Notes: a model not told the origin generated them from the letters alone. A DNA stretch of 64,000 nt from Deltaproteobacteria bacterium ADurb.Bin207 (GCA_002070115.1 MWCO01000012.1:1-64000), one strand, 5' to 3'. Positions 34,079 to 45,238 are shown, numbered from the stretch's first letter. Numbers and translations: made by a program.

Positions 34079-34603
34079 TCATGAGCGGCGAAAAAACGTA
34101 TGGACGAGTTCGTCGCCACGCACATCGCTATAGGTTGCGTACCCCTTTTTCTCCGCCATATCCACGAGCGGAGCGGGAACGAAGGGAGTGATGAGAAGGT
34201 ATACCTGTCCCGGAGCGAGTTGATTCAGCGCCGAAAGGACTGGTTGCATGGGATGGCCGCCCGCATCGAGCAGAGGACGAGCATCGAATGATGCGGTAAC
34301 TTGTTCTGGATTGGCCCAGGGGGGAGCGGGCAGAGGTTCTTGTTGAGGTTGCGCATCGGTGGGTTGTTGTTCTTGGCCGACGGCTTCTCGCAGGCGATTG
34401 ATCAAGATGCCAAGGCCAATGCCCCCGACGGAAGCAACTTGTCTCAAGGTGGCGACCTTGGCCACGGTACGACGAAGTACTGGATTTTTCAGGGCTTGAA
34501 AGGTGGGAGACAAGCTCACGAGGACGGCTTCTAGTTCGGGGTATACCTCGAGCAGTTGAGCCACACGAACATCGGGAGTGATGAGCAACCGTTCATTCGC
34601 CAT
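34079..34603 (-). CDS. DUF1858/DUF2249 protein
   Basis: A 174-aa protein starting MANERLLITPDVRVAQLLEVYPELEAVL (here split): residues 5-65 match the DUF1858 helical domain seen in ScdA/YtfE-like and related repair proteins, and the C-terminal 70 residues (FDARPLLDAGGHPMQPVLSA ... DELVHTFFRR) match DUF2249. A Pro/Gln-rich linker joins them. The start is placed at 34603, where it overlaps the DUF438 gene by 11 bp. The pairing suggests shared work in nitric oxide or oxygen response, or iron-sulfur repair, but no substrate is shown. Confidence 0.75.
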   Translation of the reverse strand: MANERLLITPDVRVAQLLEVYPELEAVLVSLSPTFQALKNPVLRRTVAKVATLRQVASVGGIGLGILINRLREAVGQEQQPTDAQPQQEPLPAPPWANPEQVTASFDARPLLDAGGHPMQPVLSALNQLAPGQVYLLITPFVPAPLVDMAEKKGYATYSDVRGDELVHTFFRRS

Positions 34604-35846
34604 GCTCGACCTCACGTTCCCAAGTGAGGAGGCGCTGTTCACCTTGCAGTGCCCGTTTGTCCGTGAGGTCTTGGCTGACTTCGATACATCCGAGGTATTG
34701 ACCATCGGCATCGCGCATGGCGAAGTATTCGATGGAGATGAAGCGTCCTTTCATTTCGATCCAGAAGGCCGCCCGATCTTTGTTACCGTTGCGGAATTGT
34801 TCGAGAATTTGTTCGACCGTATGAACGCTCGAGGGCGGATGGCAATACTGGACTTTGCGTCCGAGGATGGCGCGCGTGCGAGCGAAGATACGTTCTGCGC
34901 CTTGGGTGAAGTAGCGAACGGTATCCTTGGCATCCACGAAGGTGATGTCGAAAGGAATGGTATTGAGCATGGCTTCTAGTTCAGCCAGGTCGAAGCTTCC
35001 CGATTTGAGTTGAATACGACCGCTTTGCGATTCTTGCGCGAGAGATTCGGGCAGATCGTCAGGGCGCCATTCACTCGGAGGATCGTAAAGACAAAATCCG
35101 ATCTCGGAACTCTGGCGTGCGATTTCAAACCATTCCTGGGACGACAACGTATCGAGGCACATGGGAAAAAGAATTTGTTCTTCTTTATCCGTCATGTCGG
35201 TGATGGCTTTGCATGCGGGAGCAAGAACGAGGTCGATCACTCCTTTGGCTTCGCCCGCGGTGACGGTGCGAGTGGAGGCCAGGGCTTCGGCGGCGGACTT
35301 GAGCAACGCGCGGGTTTCGTCGTGCTTGCCCCACATGATTTTGGGTGGACCGGTGATGCCGTGTTTTTCGAGGAAGGGGAAGAGCAGATGTTCTTTGCGA
35401 AGGTAGTGTTTCTCGACATCCATGAGGGCGTTGAAACGGAGTCGTAAGGCACTCCACACGGAGGAGACGTCTTGTTGAGGGTCGGCGACGGTGAGATCGG
35501 CACTGAGTTTTGCGACTTGTTTGACTTCGAGGCGCAAGGCTTGGTTTTCGGCGGCAAAGGTGTGGACGGGGTGTCCGGTGGGCAGTGGTTTTTTTGGTTT
35601 TCGGATTTGCACGAGACCGGAGAGGGCTTCGGCATGGACATCGCATAGTTCGAGCACTTCTTTTTCGGGAAGTCCCTCGGCCATCAACTCTTGTTCGACC
35701 TCGACGACATCCCCATAAGGAACTTCGCCCAAGAGGCGAGCAAGTTGCGCCCGCACCGCTTGTGGCGCCGTACCGTCGTGAAGCTGGCGAATCATGTGCT
35801 TGAGCAGTTCTTTGCGACGCGTGGCGTTGTCGATCACCTCACTCAT
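34593..35846 (-). CDS. DUF438-hemerythrin-PAS protein
   Basis: A 417-aa soluble protein in three parts. Residues 10-80 are a DUF438 domain (helical, RRKELLKHMIRQLHDG). Residues about 95-240 are a hemerythrin-like four-helix bundle with candidate di-iron ligands in EKHYLRKEHLLFPFLEKHG, WGKHDETR and KEEQILFPM. Residues about 280-400 are a PAS fold (NTIPFDITFVDAKDTVRYFTQ, GQYLGCIEVSQDLT). Such proteins bind O2 or NO through the di-iron or haem centre. The gene overlaps the DUF1858/DUF2249 gene by 11 bp. Upstream 35847-35999 separates it from a phosphatase gene in the same orientation. Confidence 0.85.
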   Translation of the reverse strand: MSEVIDNATRRKELLKHMIRQLHDGTAPQAVRAQLARLLGEVPYGDVVEVEQELMAEGLPEKEVLELCDVHAEALSGLVQIRKPKKPLPTGHPVHTFAAENQALRLEVKQVAKLSADLTVADPQQDVSSVWSALRLRFNALMDVEKHYLRKEHLLFPFLEKHGITGPPKIMWGKHDETRALLKSAAEALASTRTVTAGEAKGVIDLVLAPACKAITDMTDKEEQILFPMCLDTLSSQEWFEIARQSSEIGFCLYDPPSEWRPDDLPESLAQESQSGRIQLKSGSFDLAELEAMLNTIPFDITFVDAKDTVRYFTQGAERIFARTRAILGRKVQYCHPPSSVHTVEQILEQFRNGNKDRAAFWIEMKGRFISIEYFAMRDADGQYLGCIEVSQDLTDKRALQGEQRLLTWEREVEHGE

Positions 35847-36752: not shown

Positions 36753-36830
36753 TGGAGCGCATCTTGACAGGTGGGGCGGTACAAGGGAAGCGCAAGAGGC
36801 GATGGGTCGATAGCATCCATCGGATAGACA

Positions 36831-36881
36831 AAAAAGCTGTCGCGCGGAGAGCCTCGGGGGGGGCAGTCATCCGCGCGACAA
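36831..36881 (-). terminator. Strong intrinsic terminator of the KAS III/sulfotransferase operon
   Basis: On the minus strand a perfect 11-bp stem (TGTCGCGCGGA at 36871-36881 complement with TCCGCGCGACA at 36839-36849) encloses a 21-nt C-rich loop and is followed by GC and six T (plus-strand A-run 36831-36836). It lies about 175 bp past the sulfotransferase stop. The 303-bp space 36753-37055 holds this hairpin, a G-rich stretch, and presumably the promoter of the phosphatase gene; no gene was seen there. Confidence 0.8.
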
Positions 36882-37055
36882 GCAAAAGCGCGAAAGGACA
36901 GAGGGGGGGAGGGAGGGGTATGTCTCTCTCGCGCCGATGTTGGGATAGCATATCGTGGGGGGAAAAACCAAGATTTGGTTGCGTGGGCGCGTTGGCAGCA
37001 GCGAGGCGGCAAGGGACTAGCTTGCCGTCTTGGAATTTTCGCGACTTACGACGGT

Positions 37056-38165
37056 TCAGGGGCAAGCCAGGTCGAAGTCATCGATGACGAAGGCGAGGTC
37101 GGAACGAATTTTTTCTGCGGTCAACCCGAATTTTTCGAGACTGTACGTATGAGGGCTTTTTCGTTGTCGTTGCACGATCGCTTGCTGTTGCACCCGAGTC
37201 CGGAACTGGGTGGGGGGTTCGATTTCGAGAAAGTCGACAATGTCGCGCATGGTGGATTCGAGGTCGGCCATGAGTTGGGGATAGCGCACGATGAGTAGGT
37301 TTTTTTCCGGGATGGCGCCTTGTTTCCACACCTCGTGGAAGTACCGGAACAAGTAACAGGAAGCCTGATAAAGATTATCGAGATATCGTTTCCGGTCTTG
37401 CTCCCGGGTGCTGTGAAATACGTCGTAGGATTGCTCGAGCACGCCGGTAATCATGGACATGCCGCTAGGGATCGTTTCGACGGGATCGCGGACGACATAC
37501 AGCAGTTTGCAGTCCGGATAGCGATGCAACAGCGTTTTGATGCGCAAGGTGTAGCTGCTTGCTTTCACCGCGATGCGCGATTTGTTTTTGACGAGCAGGT
37601 TTCTTCGCCAACAACCTTCCATATAGTGGAAGTGTCGTTCGATGTTTTCGGCTGAATCTTGGTCGAGTTCGAACAAGGCCCGGGCAGATTCGCTTCCCCA
37701 ATGGTCTTGCCAAGCGAGGAAGTAGGTCCACAAAAACGCGCCATCGACGAAGCGAAACAGGGCGAGGGCGTCGTCCGTTTCCACGTCCCGCAAGCTGGTT
37801 TCATGAGCAGCGGCGCTGTGATAACGGGCTGGAGAAAGAGGCGCAAGTCGATCGACGAACGGTCCGATGGTGCGACGAGCGGTGATGGCGGGAAAGAGCA
37901 TTTCCCACAGTTCGAAAGCAGCCAAGGAGTCTGTGTGGAGCAAGAATCGGTGCAGGAACGTGGTGCCGCTGCGTGGGTTACCGAGGATGAACACGGGGCG
38001 ATCGATCGGTTGTCGAGTGAAGGACGGCGACCACAGATGGTCGGCGGCGAGCGTTGCGGCGTTGACAACGGAATGGGCTTGTTTGAGAGCGAAGGTACCG
38101 ATGGGGCGAAGTCGGAAGCCGAAGGTTTTCAGGATGATCCGGTAGATTTGGAGGTAACGATTCAT
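37056..38165 (-). CDS. PAPS-dependent sulfotransferase
   Basis: A 369-aa sulfotransferase-fold protein. The 5'-phosphosulfate loop FILGNPRSGTTFLHRF is at about 59-74 and the 3'-phosphate segment VRDPVETIPSG near 243-253, both intact. It should move a sulfuryl group from PAPS to a hydroxyl. The ATG at 38165, with GGGAAG upstream, begins 1 bp after the stop of the KAS III-like gene; an upstream in-frame start would overlap it. The N-terminal 55 residues form basic helices that could touch the membrane. Operon context suggests a lipid or long-chain acceptor, but this is inferred. A strong terminator follows. Confidence 0.88.
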   Translation of the reverse strand: MNRYLQIYRIILKTFGFRLRPIGTFALKQAHSVVNAATLAADHLWSPSFTRQPIDRPVFILGNPRSGTTFLHRFLLHTDSLAAFELWEMLFPAITARRTIGPFVDRLAPLSPARYHSAAAHETSLRDVETDDALALFRFVDGAFLWTYFLAWQDHWGSESARALFELDQDSAENIERHFHYMEGCWRRNLLVKNKSRIAVKASSYTLRIKTLLHRYPDCKLLYVVRDPVETIPSGMSMITGVLEQSYDVFHSTREQDRKRYLDNLYQASCYLFRYFHEVWKQGAIPEKNLLIVRYPQLMADLESTMRDIVDFLEIEPPTQFRTRVQQQAIVQRQRKSPHTYSLEKFGLTAEKIRSDLAFVIDDFDLACP

Positions 38166-38166
38166 C

Positions 38167-39192
38167 TTACGCTTCCCAGACGCCGGCCAGGCTAACCATG
38201 CTGAAGCCCGCTGCTGCAGTGCCAAGCACGAGTTTATCTCCAGGACGTACGCGCTTTTGTTTCAGCAACTCATGCAAGGCCAAACTCACGGTCGTGCTCA
38301 CGGTATTGGCGTAAAGATGGTGCGTCAGAAGCCCCTTGCTTCGATCCACACCGAGGTCATCGAGCACTCCAAGCAAAATGCTCTCCGACGGTTGATGGAA
38401 AACGAAATGGTCCACGTCGTCGACTTTCCATCCCACTTGCGCCACCAGTCTTTCGACTTCCGGGGCCACGTGTTCATTGAGTTTGAATAGATCCGTGGAC
38501 AGGGACGTGAAGGTTCCATCGATTGGGGCGGAACACAGATGCCAATGGGTGGGCATGGAGTGATTGCGGAATCCGAGGAGTCTCAGACTTCCTCCCGCAA
38601 AAGGCTGACGGCCGAGCAACCATGCGCTTGCCGCATTTCCGATGGTCAGACCCGCCGCCTTCGTGAGAAGGTCTTTCACCGTCTGAATATCGAAACAAAG
38701 AAAGTTTCGCGTGAGTTCGGCGGAACCAATCAAAGCCATTCGATACTCATCATGCATGGAAAGATAACTGGCGGCGATGTGAATGCCTTCGAGCTGTCCC
38801 GCGCATGCGCTGGTGACGTCGAAAGCGTGGACATGCCGTAGCCCGCACTTGGCGGCGACTTCCATGGCCGTAGCTGGCTCGAAGTATTCGCGCGCCACAC
38901 CACCGTAAATGAGCAAACTGATGTCCGAGGATGCAACGCGGTGGGTTTGCAGGCATAGGTTTGCCGCGCGAGCGGCGTAGTCTCCGACCCGAGCCTCATG
39001 ATCTTCCTCGAAATAGCGAATGGAGGTGCCACAACGTTCGAGCACTCTACGCATGGCCGCTTCGAGCAAAGGCCACTTGATAGGGTTTCCACGATAGTTT
39101 TCACGAACGCGAGCGATCACCTGCTCGTTGGTAAGCCGCGTGGCAGGGAGAAGCACCGCGGGAGGTGACAAGTACAAAGGCGGATGCGGCAT
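38167..39192 (-). CDS. Ketoacyl synthase III-like enzyme (FabH/OleA-type)
   Basis: A 341-aa thiolase-fold enzyme. The KAS III triad is intact: Cys130 in DVTSACAG, His266 in FVFHQPS and Asn296 in LYANTVSTTVS. KAS III enzymes condense acyl-CoA with malonyl-ACP, and OleA-type relatives join two acyl chains. The N-terminal region is longer and less FabH-like (SPPAVLLPATRLTNEQV), closer to the stand-alone synthases of special lipid pathways. It lies 8 bp after the ASST-like gene and 1 bp before the sulfotransferase gene. No acyl carrier protein or reductase is adjacent, which argues against routine fatty acid initiation. Confidence 0.85.
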   Translation of the reverse strand: MPHPPLYLSPPAVLLPATRLTNEQVIARVRENYRGNPIKWPLLEAAMRRVLERCGTSIRYFEEDHEARVGDYAARAANLCLQTHRVASSDISLLIYGGVAREYFEPATAMEVAAKCGLRHVHAFDVTSACAGQLEGIHIAASYLSMHDEYRMALIGSAELTRNFLCFDIQTVKDLLTKAAGLTIGNAASAWLLGRQPFAGGSLRLLGFRNHSMPTHWHLCSAPIDGTFTSLSTDLFKLNEHVAPEVERLVAQVGWKVDDVDHFVFHQPSESILLGVLDDLGVDRSKGLLTHHLYANTVSTTVSLALHELLKQKRVRPGDKLVLGTAAAGFSMVSLAGVWEA

Positions 39193-39200
39193 GAGCTAGG

Positions 39201-40568
39201 TCACCAGTCCGTGAAAAAAGATCGCGGCACGTTCACGGCCTTGTAGATCCAGTAATACTTCTGTACCAAAAATTCCCACGCCTTGTGCTTGTCCCGCGTA
39301 ACTTCCACCACCCTTCCGTTGATGCCGTCGGTCACAAGGACGTTGCCATTGTCCAAGGCTTGTGCCGAACCGAGAGCAAACGAATAAAAATCCGGTGTTT
39401 CACGGTACTCCCAGACGATTTGTGCCTGTTTCTGTTCGGGATCGAATTCCACCTCGATCACACGTGAATACTGGGGTTTTGGGCGACGATATCCATTGTC
39501 GAAGATCAACACGCGGTGGTCAGAAAGAAATTGTGGATCATGGCAGTGGTCCCAGATCCCAGCGCCGAAATCTCCCCCATCGCCCATGATCCAATCCACC
39601 TTCTGGGTTGCCACATCGATTTTGTAAATTCGATTGAGATTCCGAACGTTGAGCAACACCTTGCTGCCGGTCTCATCGAAGGTAATCGCGTTGGAGTGTG
39701 TCCAATCCTGTCCGAGTCCAAGCTCGTTGGAGGCCAAGTCCTGTTCGTTGACGTCAGTCCACGGAATATGATCTCGTCCCGCCCACTTCCACTCCACTGC
39801 CGTGCCTTGCTGATTGAGTATCACAATCCCATCGCCCAACCGCGTCTTGCCATCCACCTCGAACGGATCGAAAAATAAAAATGCCCAGCGACCGTCGGAT
39901 AACCGATCGATGTCATGCCGCGCCGTGGTCTGCGTCCAACGAAACAACTCCGAGCCATCCAGATCGATGTGAACCAGATACTGATTCTGACCTGTCGCTA
40001 TCGTTCCATCCGCAAGAGGCTGCACCTCCGTAATCGGTCCCCATTCGTACGTGACATATTCCCAGACGATCGATCCCGTTCGATCCACGGCGGCCATTCG
40101 ACCTTCCCGAAATAGCTCCGCGGCAATTCGATACACGCCAAAGATGGCAACGTCATCGGATGAATTCACCGCCGGCACCGTGGTTTCGATGGAGGGAAAG
40201 CCGCTTTCGGGAGTCGAGACAGACCCGGTTTGAAACGGTGGTTCACAAGAGTCCTGGTGACACAAGGTCAACCGATACGAATACGAGGACTCCGGCTCAA
40301 GGGCGAGGTCGAGAAACCGACCGTGGCTCGCTGGCTTGCGCCCCACTTCCTGAACCTTGTTCCCGGAAGAAATCCGATGAATGATGACCTGTCCGTCTTC
40401 GACCGGCTGCCAACGAAGGCGCACATTGCGGGGACTGACAGCAGTGATTTCGATACCTTTGAGCGACGATACGCCTTCGACCGTAGGGTCATCGCCACTG
40501 CAGCCCAACGGGAAGCAAGCCGCCACGAGCGCGGCACCATGAAATAGAGCAAGAAGACGAAGATGCAC
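39201..40568 (-). CDS. Arylsulfotransferase (ASST)-like lipoprotein
   Basis: A 455-aa exported protein. With the GTG at 40568 it begins with a signal peptide ending PLGC (Cys23); a longer frame to the ATG at 40628 also exists, so the start is uncertain. Residues 35-125 look like a fibronectin III-type domain (RWQPVEDGQVIIHRISSG). The rest is a beta-propeller like PF05935 arylsulfate sulfotransferases, with HDIDRL, DWTHSNAI and HDPQFLSDHRVLIFDNG, which include the conserved His residues. ASST enzymes act in the periplasm and use phenolic sulfates, not PAPS. It heads a three-gene operon with KAS III-like and sulfotransferase genes. Confidence 0.8.
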   Translation of the reverse strand: MHLRLLALFHGAALVAACFPLGCSGDDPTVEGVSSLKGIEITAVSPRNVRLRWQPVEDGQVIIHRISSGNKVQEVGRKPASHGRFLDLALEPESSYSYRLTLCHQDSCEPPFQTGSVSTPESGFPSIETTVPAVNSSDDVAIFGVYRIAAELFREGRMAAVDRTGSIVWEYVTYEWGPITEVQPLADGTIATGQNQYLVHIDLDGSELFRWTQTTARHDIDRLSDGRWAFLFFDPFEVDGKTRLGDGIVILNQQGTAVEWKWAGRDHIPWTDVNEQDLASNELGLGQDWTHSNAITFDETGSKVLLNVRNLNRIYKIDVATQKVDWIMGDGGDFGAGIWDHCHDPQFLSDHRVLIFDNGYRRPKPQYSRVIEVEFDPEQKQAQIVWEYRETPDFYSFALGSAQALDNGNVLVTDGINGRVVEVTRDKHKAWEFLVQKYYWIYKAVNVPRSFFTDW

Positions 40569-40659
40569 GGGTGGCAGGATAGCGCCCGAATCCCGTGGAA
40601 CAAGGCAGTTCGTGCAACAAGGAGGCATGGGAAGAAAAGGGGCTTGTGACGGAAGATAC

Positions 40660-41334
40660 CTATTTGTCCAGGTTTAGCATTCGAAATTGCAGGACGATGA
40701 ACCAAACGAAAACGGCATGGGACAGGATGGAGGGAAGGAGACGCTGGGTTTTGGCCGCGAGATAGCTCCACGTGCAACCGCATAACAATGCCGCCCCAAC
40801 CACGAATGGATTCGGTCCGGAGTCCGAGCGTAGCCACCAAACGGTAGGAAGAAACGCAACGGCATACAACAGGCCCGTCAAAGGCCAAGCTAGACGAGTC
40901 CCATGGCGCTGCTCCAACATGGGCAACACCCAGCCGCGCCACCCCAATTCCTCGATGATGGCGATAATGCAAACACCTACCAACACGAGCATCCAATGTT
41001 TTTCCAAGGCGTCCGATGCCCCGAGTTGCGCATAGGCTCGCGCAAGCCATTGCGTTCTCGCCGAACCATTCGGAGCCATCACGGTTCGGCCCATCCACGA
41101 CGCTGCAAAAAGCAACAGGGCCGAGCCCATTCCCAAGGAAATATCTCCCCAGCGAGGGCCCAGCCGATCTTGTAACTCATTGTTTTTTATTATATTTTTT
41201 AGCGAATAGGCAGCGATCGGTAGCTGGGAACCTCCCAGCGATACCCATACCCACGGCGACCCGGACAGGCCCGGATAAAAAGCCACGGTCACACCGACCA
41301 ACGACAGAACCAGGGCCGCGACGATCCCAATCAC
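40660..41334 (-). CDS. CPBP-family intramembrane glutamic protease
   Basis: A 224-aa membrane protein with about seven helices. The CAAX/CPBP signature is present: EELGWRGW (Glu-Glu...Arg) near 134-141, an FLPTVWW helix in place of the usual FxxxH, and LPSILSHAVF with the late His. CPBP proteases cleave within or near membranes and include Rce1-type enzymes and bacteriocin-immunity proteins; no substrate is evident. The GTG start at 41334 is 1 nt after the coaBC stop, with GAGG upstream; a TTG start at 41361 would overlap coaBC. It appears co-transcribed with coaBC. Confidence 0.8.
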   Translation of the reverse strand: MIGIVAALVLSLVGVTVAFYPGLSGSPWVWVSLGGSQLPIAAYSLKNIIKNNELQDRLGPRWGDISLGMGSALLLFAASWMGRTVMAPNGSARTQWLARAYAQLGASDALEKHWMLVLVGVCIIAIIEELGWRGWVLPMLEQRHGTRLAWPLTGLLYAVAFLPTVWWLRSDSGPNPFVVGAALLCGCTWSYLAAKTQRLLPSILSHAVFVWFIVLQFRMLNLDK

Positions 41335-41335
41335 G

Positions 41336-42568
41336 TCAACCTCGCCCGGATCGAAGGCCAATCACACGGTCAAGAATCCGATCGGCAAGCTCATCTTTCG
41401 TCATTCGAGGTAAGCGTTCGATATCATCGCTACCCACGAGGATGGCCTCGTTGGATTCGCCACCAAAGCCGATCGAAGCGCTATTGGCCACGATGAAGTC
41501 CACACGCTTTTTGGAAAGCTTGCCGCGGGCATGCTCGATCAAGGTAGGTTCATCGGCAGTTTCGACCGCGAATCCGACGAGCAGCGGTGACGAACCCGTA
41601 CGCATGGAACCGAGTTCTGCGAGGATGTCCGGGTTGGCGACAAGCTCCAACTGAATCGGTTGGGCACCTCGTTTCATTTTTTCGTTGTGGATATGCGCGG
41701 GACGATAATCCCCCACGGCCGCGGCCATCACCAGTGCGTCCGCGCCGCCGAGCGAAGGACCCAGCACATCGTGTAGCGTGCTTCGCATGTCGCTTGCGGA
41801 CCGCACATCGCGACGTTGCACCCCTGCGGGTGTGGTCAATTCCGTGGGACCGGCGATCAAGGTAACGCGAGCGCCCCGGGCGGCGGCTCTTCGCGCCACG
41901 GAAAAGCCCATGCGTCCCGTGGATCGATTGCCGAGAAAACGTACGGGATCGATGTCTTCCACGGTAGGTCCAGCCGTTACCACGATATGCCAATCGTTCA
42001 AGTCAGGTGGTCTGAGACGCGCCAGCACGGCGCTTACGATATTTTGTGGTTCTGCCATGCGCCCCAAGCCGATTTCGCCATTGGCTACCGGGCCAACAAC
42101 AGGTCCAACCCACTCGATTCGCGCATCTCGTTGGAGCGTTTGGACGTTGCGTTGGGTGGCGGGATGGGCCCACATCCGTGGATGCATGGCAGGGGCGACG
42201 ATGACATGCCCACGGGCGCAAAGGGTCAGAGCGGTCAGCAAGTCATCGGCACGTCCTTGCGCGAAGCGAGCGATGATATCCGCGGTTGCGGGAGCGACGA
42301 GCACCACATCGGCCTGAGACGCCAGCGCTACGTGCAGTTCTCCGGAGAAGGAAGGATCCCACATATCCATGCGTGAAGCTTCGCCGCAAATGCCGGTGAA
42401 AGTGACAGGACCCACGAAGCGTGCGCCGGATTGGGTCAACACGGGCAAGACGCGGATATGGTGTTGAATCAGCAGACGGGCGATTTCGATGGACTTGAAG
42501 GCGGCGATGCTTCCTGTGACGCCAAGCACCACGGTTGGGCTATGGGGGGTTGTGACGGGCTGGTTCAT
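41336..42568 (-). CDS. coaBC: Bifunctional phosphopantothenoylcysteine synthetase/decarboxylase
   Basis: CoaBC makes 4'-phosphopantothenoylcysteine (CoaB, C-half) and decarboxylates it to phosphopantetheine (CoaC, N-half), for coenzyme A. The 410-aa protein has the flavoprotein start GVTGSIAAFKSIEIAR, active-site His in GELHVALAS, PAMHPRMW in place of the common PAMNxxMW, and GEIGLGRMAEP without the Escherichia coli Cys, as in several other phyla. The CoaB part has TAGPTVEDIDPVRFLGNRSTGRMG and a Lys in ARGKLSKKRVDFIV. It is an ordinary housekeeping enzyme; the CPBP protease gene follows directly. Confidence 0.96.
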   Translation of the reverse strand: MNQPVTTPHSPTVVLGVTGSIAAFKSIEIARLLIQHHIRVLPVLTQSGARFVGPVTFTGICGEASRMDMWDPSFSGELHVALASQADVVLVAPATADIIARFAQGRADDLLTALTLCARGHVIVAPAMHPRMWAHPATQRNVQTLQRDARIEWVGPVVGPVANGEIGLGRMAEPQNIVSAVLARLRPPDLNDWHIVVTAGPTVEDIDPVRFLGNRSTGRMGFSVARRAAARGARVTLIAGPTELTTPAGVQRRDVRSASDMRSTLHDVLGPSLGGADALVMAAAVGDYRPAHIHNEKMKRGAQPIQLELVANPDILAELGSMRTGSSPLLVGFAVETADEPTLIEHARGKLSKKRVDFIVANSASIGFGGESNEAILVGSDDIERLPRMTKDELADRILDRVIGLRSGRG

Positions 42569-42640: not shown

Positions 42641-45238
42641 TTAGGCTTCCGCCGGATATCGCTGCCGCGTCCATCCTGCCCATAAGATAGCGGCAAGGTA
42701 GATCGCAGCGGCAAATAGCGTGATGGGCGTGCGGCCCATGGCAAAGCAAATAGGAACGAAAAGCATCGAACCAAGCACGTTGAAAGCGGAAGATACCGCC
42801 CACATCCACGCCAAGCTTCGCGCATCACTCGTTTTGAGGGAACTCATGTACCAAGGGACAGGAACGCCAAGCAATGCACCAAGCGGCAAGGTCAGAACGA
42901 TGGACGCGAACACACGCAATCCCCAACTCGTTCCGATGAGGTGAGGCAAACCGAATCGAATGGCCGATGCGTACAAAACAGCACCCAGAACGAATAACCC
43001 CACCATGATTCCGAAACTACGCGAAGAACGAACCAGGTACTTTTCCGTGGCCAGGCTTCCGAAGGCGTAGCCGATGAGCACGCTCGGCAAAACGATGGAT
43101 AGCGAATACAGCGGTCCGCCCACAAACAAGGTCAAGTTCAAAAACGCAACGTTTTCTACCAACATGAAGGCGAAACCGGAGAGGGCGAAAAAGGGCAAAG
43201 CGGCGACGACCTGCTTTCGCGCCGTGGCGTTTCCACCTTCGAGCTTGGCTTTGCGCCGCACCAGGATCGGCGCGGCCACCAATGCCGCGGAAGCAAGCAA
43301 CGCGCAGAGGAACATCCATCGCACGGCGGGCTGGGGATAGACGAACGCGCCATCGATGGCGCTCAACCACGTGTGTTGGTTGGTACCGACGAAGTAGAAA
43401 TAAGGACGTTCGTCGGTGGAAGGTCGTACATCCCAGCGCATCTGGCTTAGGATTTTTTCTCGCTCTTCGGCGTTGGCAGCCCGTGCCAAAGGAATGAAAG
43501 GAAGGTCTTTTTGCGTCACCGTCTCGCGCAAAGGATCGATGAACGGTGCGTAATACTTGGCAAGCTCATCGTAGGTGGCGTCGTCGAGCTTGGAAAAAGC
43601 ATCGCCCAGAGGACGAACGGGAGGCGTATCGTCGGGTTGTAAGGGGTGATAGATGAAGCGATAGTGGTTGGCGGCGGCGTACGCTTCGAGTCGAGCGATC
43701 TCGTCTTTGGTGAATGCGCCTTTTTTGAGAAGCCCGTTTTCCCAATAGCTATCGAAAATGAAAACGAGGCTATCACCGGGGCGTTGCACTCCGTGTTTTT
43801 CCAAAAAAGTCAAATAAGTCACGAACTTACGTAGTGTCAGCGAAGCGGGGGACGAGTAGCCATGAGACAGCGACAGGATGCCTCCCGGCTTGAGCAAACG
43901 GTAGTAATCGGCCACCGCATCCTCGGTATACAAGAAGTTTTCCGATAGCGCGTTGGCAGCGGATCGAATCGCGGTAAGAGTGTCGACACCACTGGCTTCG
44001 ATCACGTCATAGGTTTCTTCTCCTCCGAGGGTGTGACACCAATGCCGCGCTTCGGTATTCAGCAAGTTCACCGAGGTGCGTTCATCGGATAAAATCCAAG
44101 GACTATAGCGATCTCGCATCGGGTCTTGCGGCAGACCGAGCAACACACGGTAGGTGTCGGGATTCAACTCGATGGCATCGACATGCTTGGTTCCGAAGGC
44201 TTTGGCGACGAGCACATCGACGCCACCACCGGCACCGATGACGAGTGCCTTTTCGGGTGGGGAGTCGGCAGAGCGCGGGACATAAGGTGCCGCCCACAAC
44301 GAGTTTTTTAGAAATTCCTGCTCGGGAGCCGGGGCGTGGAGAGCGAATTGACGCGTGCTGGCACCTCCGTCCACCAAAATGAAGCGACCAGGAAGATCCA
44401 CCGTATCGAAGCGATGGGCAATGCCTCCCCGGTACGATCGCTCCCGAGAGTCTCCCGTCTTGCTCACGTCGATGCGCGCGATGGCGTTCCAGAAGGACAT
44501 TTCGATACCTTGGAAATCGACCAACAGAGCCTTACGCAGCAGCCCATACTTCATGGAAAAAATGTCATGCCCGTAGATTCCGCGCGCCAAGCCCGGATAG
44601 GCGAGCACGCCGACACAAAGCGCGATCGCCAGGGGAATGCGCCATGGCAACGAATACTTCCAGGGCAGGGAGCCGGTGGCATGCCAATAAAACAAGGCAC
44701 CCGCGACACCGAGCAGGGCCACCATCACGGTGGCGCCATAACCCGTCAGAGAACTGATGGCCGATGCGGCGACGGCGGCACCAAGCCCCGCACCGAGCAA
44801 GTCCCAAAAGTAGATGATGCCGGGCCCTTGTTTGGCAGCGATCAACGTGTAGCTCACGCAAACGCCCACAAAGAAAAAGGGCAGTGCAAACATCAGAAAA
44901 AACAGCGGAAGAGCGATCACACCTCGCCAATCCGCAAACAACGGATCCACCGGCAGAAAACAAAACACCGGAATGACAATCAAACAGGATAACGCAAACC
45001 AATAGGCGTATCTGCCCAACACCTTCGGGGAAGGGCCGTCGTCGGTGGGAAAAGAGCCGGGCCGAAGGTGAACGAACACACCCGCACTGCCAAAACCCAG
45101 CATTGCCGTGCTGATGATGGCAAACGTGTAGTGGTGCTCGAGTTTCGAGCCGAAGAACTTCGTGAGAAGAATCTCGAACAGCAACGAAGCCGCGCTGACG
45201 AGAAACAGTCCTATCAGGATCGCGTTGCGACGAATCAC
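42641..45238 (-). CDS. Membrane spermidine-synthase-like methyltransferase-fold protein
   Basis: An 865-aa protein: about six N-terminal membrane helices (1-215), a central Rossmann methyltransferase/spermidine synthase-like domain (about 330-500, with ALVIGAGGGVDVLVAKAFG and HVDAIELNPDTY), and a C-terminal block of about six helices (660-860). The GGGxG loop and the acidic Glu of ELNP are intact. Such two-block spermidine-synthase-like proteins are widespread in deltaproteobacteria without a proven substrate. The polyamine pocket residues cannot be judged by eye. It stands alone between coaBC and an ATP-grasp gene. Confidence 0.8.
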   Translation of the reverse strand: MIRRNAILIGLFLVSAASLLFEILLTKFFGSKLEHHYTFAIISTAMLGFGSAGVFVHLRPGSFPTDDGPSPKVLGRYAYWFALSCLIVIPVFCFLPVDPLFADWRGVIALPLFFLMFALPFFFVGVCVSYTLIAAKQGPGIIYFWDLLGAGLGAAVAASAISSLTGYGATVMVALLGVAGALFYWHATGSLPWKYSLPWRIPLAIALCVGVLAYPGLARGIYGHDIFSMKYGLLRKALLVDFQGIEMSFWNAIARIDVSKTGDSRERSYRGGIAHRFDTVDLPGRFILVDGGASTRQFALHAPAPEQEFLKNSLWAAPYVPRSADSPPEKALVIGAGGGVDVLVAKAFGTKHVDAIELNPDTYRVLLGLPQDPMRDRYSPWILSDERTSVNLLNTEARHWCHTLGGEETYDVIEASGVDTLTAIRSAANALSENFLYTEDAVADYYRLLKPGGILSLSHGYSSPASLTLRKFVTYLTFLEKHGVQRPGDSLVFIFDSYWENGLLKKGAFTKDEIARLEAYAAANHYRFIYHPLQPDDTPPVRPLGDAFSKLDDATYDELAKYYAPFIDPLRETVTQKDLPFIPLARAANAEEREKILSQMRWDVRPSTDERPYFYFVGTNQHTWLSAIDGAFVYPQPAVRWMFLCALLASAALVAAPILVRRKAKLEGGNATARKQVVAALPFFALSGFAFMLVENVAFLNLTLFVGGPLYSLSIVLPSVLIGYAFGSLATEKYLVRSSRSFGIMVGLFVLGAVLYASAIRFGLPHLIGTSWGLRVFASIVLTLPLGALLGVPVPWYMSSLKTSDARSLAWMWAVSSAFNVLGSMLFVPICFAMGRTPITLFAAAIYLAAILWAGWTRQRYPAEA

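Follow-up and report, generated by a model that had tools for sequence, protein, structure and literature searches.

A candidate lipid-sulfation cassette of an OleA-like thiolase, a PAPS-dependent sulfotransferase and an ASST-family lipoprotein

The natural acceptors of most arylsulfate sulfotransferases (ASSTs) have not been identified according to a 2026 review (PMC13426309). In caprazamycin biosynthesis, as described in PMC4257720, PMC6731281 and PMC13426309, a triketide pyrone is sulfated by the 3′-phosphoadenosine 5′-phosphosulfate (PAPS)-dependent Cpz8 and is then the donor for the ASST Cpz4. A 64,000-nucleotide stretch of Deltaproteobacteria bacterium ADurb.Bin207 (MWCO01000012.1:1-64000; the window) encodes a comparable trio on its minus strand: an ASST-family lipoprotein, a condensing enzyme of the β-ketoacyl-acyl carrier protein (ACP) synthase III superfamily (KAS), and a PAPS-dependent sulfotransferase (ST). 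We consider the trio a candidate lipid-sulfation cassette that may work as a two-stage sulfate relay, with a rough probability of 0.5. The co-occurrence of the genes, their operon order and the PAPS genes nearby in relatives speak strongly for a linked pathway of acyl condensation, PAPS sulfation and sulfate handling outside the cell. Such a pathway had been proposed from the sequence of the window alone (the original prediction). That prediction is partly supported: the linkage stands, but the enzyme it read as KAS III-like is an OleA-like thiolase by its Glu-Pro motif.

The trio shares with Cpz6/Cpz8/Cpz4 of Streptomyces (Tang et al. 2013, as relayed in PMC4257720, PMC6731281 and PMC12142624) the joint encoding of a thiolase-superfamily condensing enzyme, a PAPS-dependent sulfotransferase and an ASST. 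Sulfate goes first onto the small ketide and then to the final acceptor, and the same order is proposed for the trio. The trio differs in that its condensing enzyme matches Pfam and NCBIfam KAS III/OleA models and is an OleA-like thiolase, whereas Cpz6 is a type III polyketide synthase (PKS); it has no nucleoside antibiotic context, and its donor and acceptor are putative. The original prediction knew of no described pathway with this set, which holds for the enzyme families but overlooks the functional parallel with caprazamycin. The adipostatin genes for AdpPKS, AdpST and PAPS synthesis give a sulfated end product without an ASST (PMC12135136). Their clustering of a condensing enzyme, a dedicated sulfotransferase and PAPS synthesis is repeated in two relatives of the window's genome, G300 and G339, but adipostatin uses a type III PKS that makes resorcinols and its reported five-gene operon has no ASST. 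No paper on a combination of OleA with a sulfotransferase appeared among the search results, and the word sulfotransferase is absent from the OleA survey paper.

The genes of the trio and the ST motifs lie at these positions of the window:
39201..40628, minus strand: ASST-family (Arylsulfotrans) beta-propeller lipoprotein (Pfam PF05935, 5e-35; alignment to 3elq)
38167..39192, minus strand: OleA-like thiolase of the KAS III superfamily, KAS (best PDB match 3row, 5e-22; triad and Glu105-Pro106)
37056..38165, minus strand, ATG at 38165: PAPS-dependent sulfotransferase of the Sulfotransfer_3 family, ST (Pfam PF13469, 6e-26)
37953..37982, minus strand: 5′-phosphosulfate binding loop of ST, GNPRSGTTFL
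37461..37490, minus strand: 3′-phosphate binding segment of ST, RDPVETIPSG

Gaps of 8 bp (ASST-KAS) and 1 bp (KAS-ST) separate the three genes. Matches to Arylsulfotrans (5e-35), ACP_syn_III_C (7e-20) and Sulfotransfer_3 (6e-26) argue that the open reading frames (ORFs) are not chance. The ORF coordinates and Pfam matches thus bear out the closely spaced minus-strand run of the original prediction.

Linkage of the three genes in relatives

Linkage was measured in 184 genomes of the order and 379 genomes of the phylum, many of them fragmented and with mechanical gene calls. In the phylum, KAS occurs in 29 genomes, ST in 55 and both in 26, so that ST is present in 26/29 KAS-positive and 29/350 KAS-negative genomes (Fisher p 9e-22). 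At the genus level, all 12 KAS-positive genera have ST (p 3e-11). KAS is found in 9 and ST in 12 genomes of the order, with ST in 9/9 KAS-positive versus 3/175 KAS-negative genomes (p 4e-13); the association has p 2e-5 after removal of the six genomes used for the ST profile. These 2x2 tables reject a coincidental KAS-ST adjacency. The possibility that the genes never co-occur elsewhere, raised with the original prediction, is set aside by the phylum counts and by the trio order in G338. Six genomes of four families have KAS and ST side by side in one orientation: the window's genome (G000), G022, G113, G300, G339 and G338.

The ASST is present in 17/18 KAS-positive and 1/13 KAS-negative genomes tested. 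Of the 17 KAS-positive genomes that have an ASST, 11 carry one no more than 10 kb from KAS, where 0.37 is expected by chance. The order ASST-(lipoprotein)-KAS-ST recurs in G338, and that ASST is the only one in the genome. A condensing enzyme, a PAPS sulfotransferase and an ASST are therefore encoded together in the window and G338, and also in G446 (locus L177), where the order is KAS-ST-ASST with a different KAS III, K1. ST-positive genomes without the KAS of the window, in other families of the phylum, often carry this FabH-like K1, which has no Glu-Pro motif, beside ST (L162, L163, L164, L168, L170 and L177). Because K1 adjoins ST where KAS is absent, the recurring theme is a condensing enzyme with this ST, and the ASST is a frequent third member.

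PAPS synthesis is clustered with the pair in several relatives. CysD-CysNC adjoins KAS-ST divergently in G300, in G339 the next gene upstream of KAS-ST encodes an APS kinase, and CysNC and CysD adjoin ST in G150, G151 and G485, joined by CysH in G150 and G151. No PAPS-synthesis gene lies within the window, as the original prediction said of the surroundings of the trio; the genome supplies an ATP sulfurylase (G000:C90) and an APS kinase homologue (G000:C7) elsewhere.

DUF1302 and LolA-like genes come after KAS in G150, G151 and G485, where FadL and ASST genes are also close by. LolA/DUF1329- and DUF1302-type proteins are part of a hydrophobe efflux system, AmeABCD, and for this reason such neighbours fit lipid export (PMC6394551). 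The LolA-like and DUF1302 proteins of the relatives are comparable to AmeB and AmeA, but their genes are not beside the window trio and no RND (resistance-nodulation-division) pump was identified. In G240 (L119, 9573-17913), the OleA-like KAS precedes a 1651-aa KS-AT-ACP PKS, ST and FabF-like ketosynthases, which indicates that the partner chemistry varies; this locus is a candidate biosynthetic cluster. A B12-binding radical SAM gene is directly upstream of KAS-ST in G022 (L034, 909-3110), and it was rejected as a pathway part because it is not beside KAS in G113.

Active sites of the condensing enzyme, sulfotransferase and ASST

The top PDB match of KAS, 3row, and its related best matches are Xanthomonas OleA structures. 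The Cys130/His266/Asn296 triad and the Glu105-Pro106 pair are invariant across nine KAS orthologues. Glu-Pro is present in 35/35 KAS family members and in canonical OleA, and is absent from FabH of the same order. The corresponding OleA position 117 is the catalytic glutamate, is followed by proline in nearly all OleA, and is unique to OleA among characterised thiolases (PMC7064751). OleA, but not FabH, acts on p-nitrophenyl hexanoate (PMC7064751). A tree of 69 proteins places the KAS family on one side of a branch with support 100/99, apart from canonical OleA, FabH and K1; the deep joins are uncertain, since the tree program flagged long branches. KAS scores 133.7 bits against the NCBIfam equivalog model PRK09258, below the 285 cut-off, and the canonical OleA of G007, from the same taxonomic family, scores 431 bits. 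The score of KAS against the fabH NCBIfam model is 94.3 bits, also below the cut-off (292.1). OleC was found above its cut-off of 478 bits in 0/9 KAS-positive genomes, and the positive control, the OleC of the oleA-B-C-D-like operon that holds the G007 OleA, scored 720 bits.

The triad and the Glu-Pro motif make OleA-like chemistry probable for KAS, but its separate clade, its score below the cut-off and the missing OleC leave OleA membership not established. Membership in the OleBCD pathway was rejected because none of the nine genomes has an OleC over the cut-off. Compared with OleA of the OleABCD olefin/β-lactone pathway, KAS shares the thiolase superfamily, the Cys/His/Asn triad and the Glu117-Pro signature, and differs in having no oleBCD and a sulfotransferase as its partner. 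Judged by these sequence features, KAS is not a FabH. The original prediction had remarked that no ACP gene is nearby; an OleA-like thiolase, as the Glu-Pro motif marks KAS, need not adjoin one. A scan of genome contigs for related loci found only distant Streptomyces KAS III. OleABCD-like operons are present at L182 (7053-11793) and L183 (2399-6952), in genomes of the same taxonomic family without this KAS.

ST has intact 5′-phosphosulfate (GNPRSGTTFL) and 3′-phosphate (RDPVETIPSG) binding motifs whose key residues are invariant in orthologues. The KAS triad and the PAPS loop are thus present as first read from the window. Solved structures related to ST by sequence are few and distant. AlphaFold models from single sequences had a mean pLDDT (predicted local distance difference test) score of 41.8 for KAS and 37.3 for the ASST, too low for fold comparison.

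The ASST residues His311, Asn313, Arg329 and His363 (codon 39540-39542) align with His356, Asn358, Arg374 and His436 of E. coli CFT073 ASST (3elq) using HMMER and a profile of seven relatives. These four are active-site residues of the E. coli enzyme, and His436 is transiently sulfated (PMC13426309). His238 is aligned and conserved in the relatives and is likely the counterpart of His252. The alignment confirms the propeller histidine motifs noted in the original prediction, and neither the ASST nor KAS lacks key residues. The ASST ORF is real, but translation likely starts at its codon 21, a GTG, and leaves out the 20 codons before it. The predicted N-terminus from this GTG, with a VAAC lipobox (LVAAC), fits a lipoprotein. 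The two ASSTs belong to the same Pfam family; the window protein differs from 3elq in reading as a lipoprotein, in its very distant sequence and in its linkage to a putative sulfated-lipid pathway. A second ASST in the same genome (G000:C1:255113-256462; L058, 7111-8496) is 48% identical to the window ASST; its neighbour encodes a 639-aa membrane protein, and neither KAS nor ST is near. A putative lipoprotein family without a Pfam match recurs beside the ASST genes of relatives (L120 9495-10442, L124 10500-11618, L043 17119-18279 and L045 8064-9134).

A two-stage sulfate relay and its alternatives

The proposed relay would start with an acyl group on KAS Cys130, which would be condensed with a second acyl-CoA, with Glu105 as the base, to form a β-keto or enolisable lipid. 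ST, whose linkage to KAS is strongly supported, would sulfate this lipid from PAPS in the cytoplasm. It is likely that these two steps yield one sulfated acyl product. As the neighbours in relatives suggest, LolA-like, DUF1302 and FadL-type proteins would move the sulfated lipid outward. The ASST lipoprotein would then transfer sulfate from the activated ester to an extracytoplasmic acceptor via a sulfo-histidine at His363.

Several points weigh against this scheme. Chief among them is the doubt that the product of an OleA-type enzyme can serve the ASST well as a donor. Donors of ASSTs are normally phenol- or enol-like, a character that an unmodified OleA product has only in its enol form. By our own reasoning, the ASST could use an enol sulfate or a cyclised pyrone well as donor, but not a plain secondary alkyl sulfate. 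Beside the trio, the window has no gene for a reductase or a cyclase, none of oleBCD and none for PAPS synthesis. The ASSTs of G022, G113 and G300 are on other contigs than KAS-ST and no ASST was detected in G146; hence KAS-ST also occurs where no ASST is linked to it. Many genomes of family f41 carry KAS and ST on different contigs. The relatives share ancestry, and the linkage p-values therefore overstate independence. The evidence is sequence comparison, and the product, donor, acceptor and direction of the ASST reaction are all putative.

The pathway may instead stop at the sulfated acyl lipid, as a sulfolipid that is secreted or sits in the outer membrane, with the ASST adding further sulfate from outside phenol sulfates or removing sulfate as a side activity. 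The closest association is that of KAS with ST, which adjoin each other in G022, G113 and G300 where no ASST is linked to them, and the adipostatin cassette sets a precedent for such an end product (PMC12135136). We regard this as somewhat unlikely, since an ASST that is near KAS in 11/17 genomes and nearly confined to the KAS-positive genomes sampled looks like part of the system. Alkene formation is a further alternative, in which ST would activate a β-hydroxy acid derived from the thiolase product and a decarboxylating loss of sulfate would replace OleB and OleC. The model is the cyanobacterial Ols/CurM route, where sulfation drives decarboxylation to an alkene. The OleA-type Glu-Pro motif of KAS and the missing OleC, which the 720-bit control shows to be detectable in the same family, agree with this route, but it is improbable: neither a thioesterase nor a reductase was seen to recur beside KAS-ST, and the recurring ASST would have no role. 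It is very improbable that KAS is a FabH-like starter enzyme of ordinary fatty acid synthesis in a coincidental gene order. The ACP_syn_III_C match would suit a FabH, but KAS forms a clade separate from FabH (100/99), its Glu-Pro motif is absent from FabH, and it is linked to ST and ASST across the phylum, a co-occurrence that already disfavours this role.

The two-stage relay has a broader form that we hold tentatively, at less than even odds. The OleA-like enzyme would make a dedicated lipid sulfate carrier, which would be loaded with sulfate from PAPS inside the cytoplasm and then exported; ASST lipoproteins would use it to sulfate surface molecules that PAPS cannot reach. Such a pathway would be widespread and undescribed. 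If true, the lipid-carrier relay would mean that the ASSTs of these bacteria have a native donor. By linking an ASST with one particular condensing enzyme and a PAPS sulfotransferase, the conserved operon puts forward a candidate native ASST donor, which can be checked with a few purified enzymes. It suggests, too, a clade of OleA-like thiolases with products outside the hydrocarbon/β-lactone route and, probably, new sulfolipids.

Transcript limits and neighbouring genes

Two further features flank the trio:
36826..36882, minus strand: intrinsic terminator downstream of ST (fold -26.8 kcal/mol, z -5.0, T6 tail)
40660..41361, minus strand: CPBP/Rce1-like membrane protease gene, 31 bp upstream of the ASST

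The hairpin lies about 170 bp past the ST stop with T6 directly after it, and 0/200 shuffles were as good, which agrees with the strong terminator originally predicted. The CPBP gene, which overlaps coaBC and has its 3′ end 31 bp before the ASST ORF, is possibly on the same transcript as the trio. No sigma-70-like promoter stood out in the promoter search. The CPBP gene is not conserved with the trio, as no counterpart adjoins KAS in relatives. The upstream CPBP/coaBC genes and the downstream metallophosphatase were rejected as pathway parts because none has a match adjoining the KAS of relatives. An 865-aa protein encoded on the minus strand at 42641-45238 reads like a membrane domain fused to a spermidine-synthase-like domain and has no Pfam match. 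Two proteins, DUF438/hemerythrin/PAS and DUF1858/DUF2249, are encoded by overlapping minus-strand genes at 34079-35846 and may form a pair that senses oxygen or nitric oxide.

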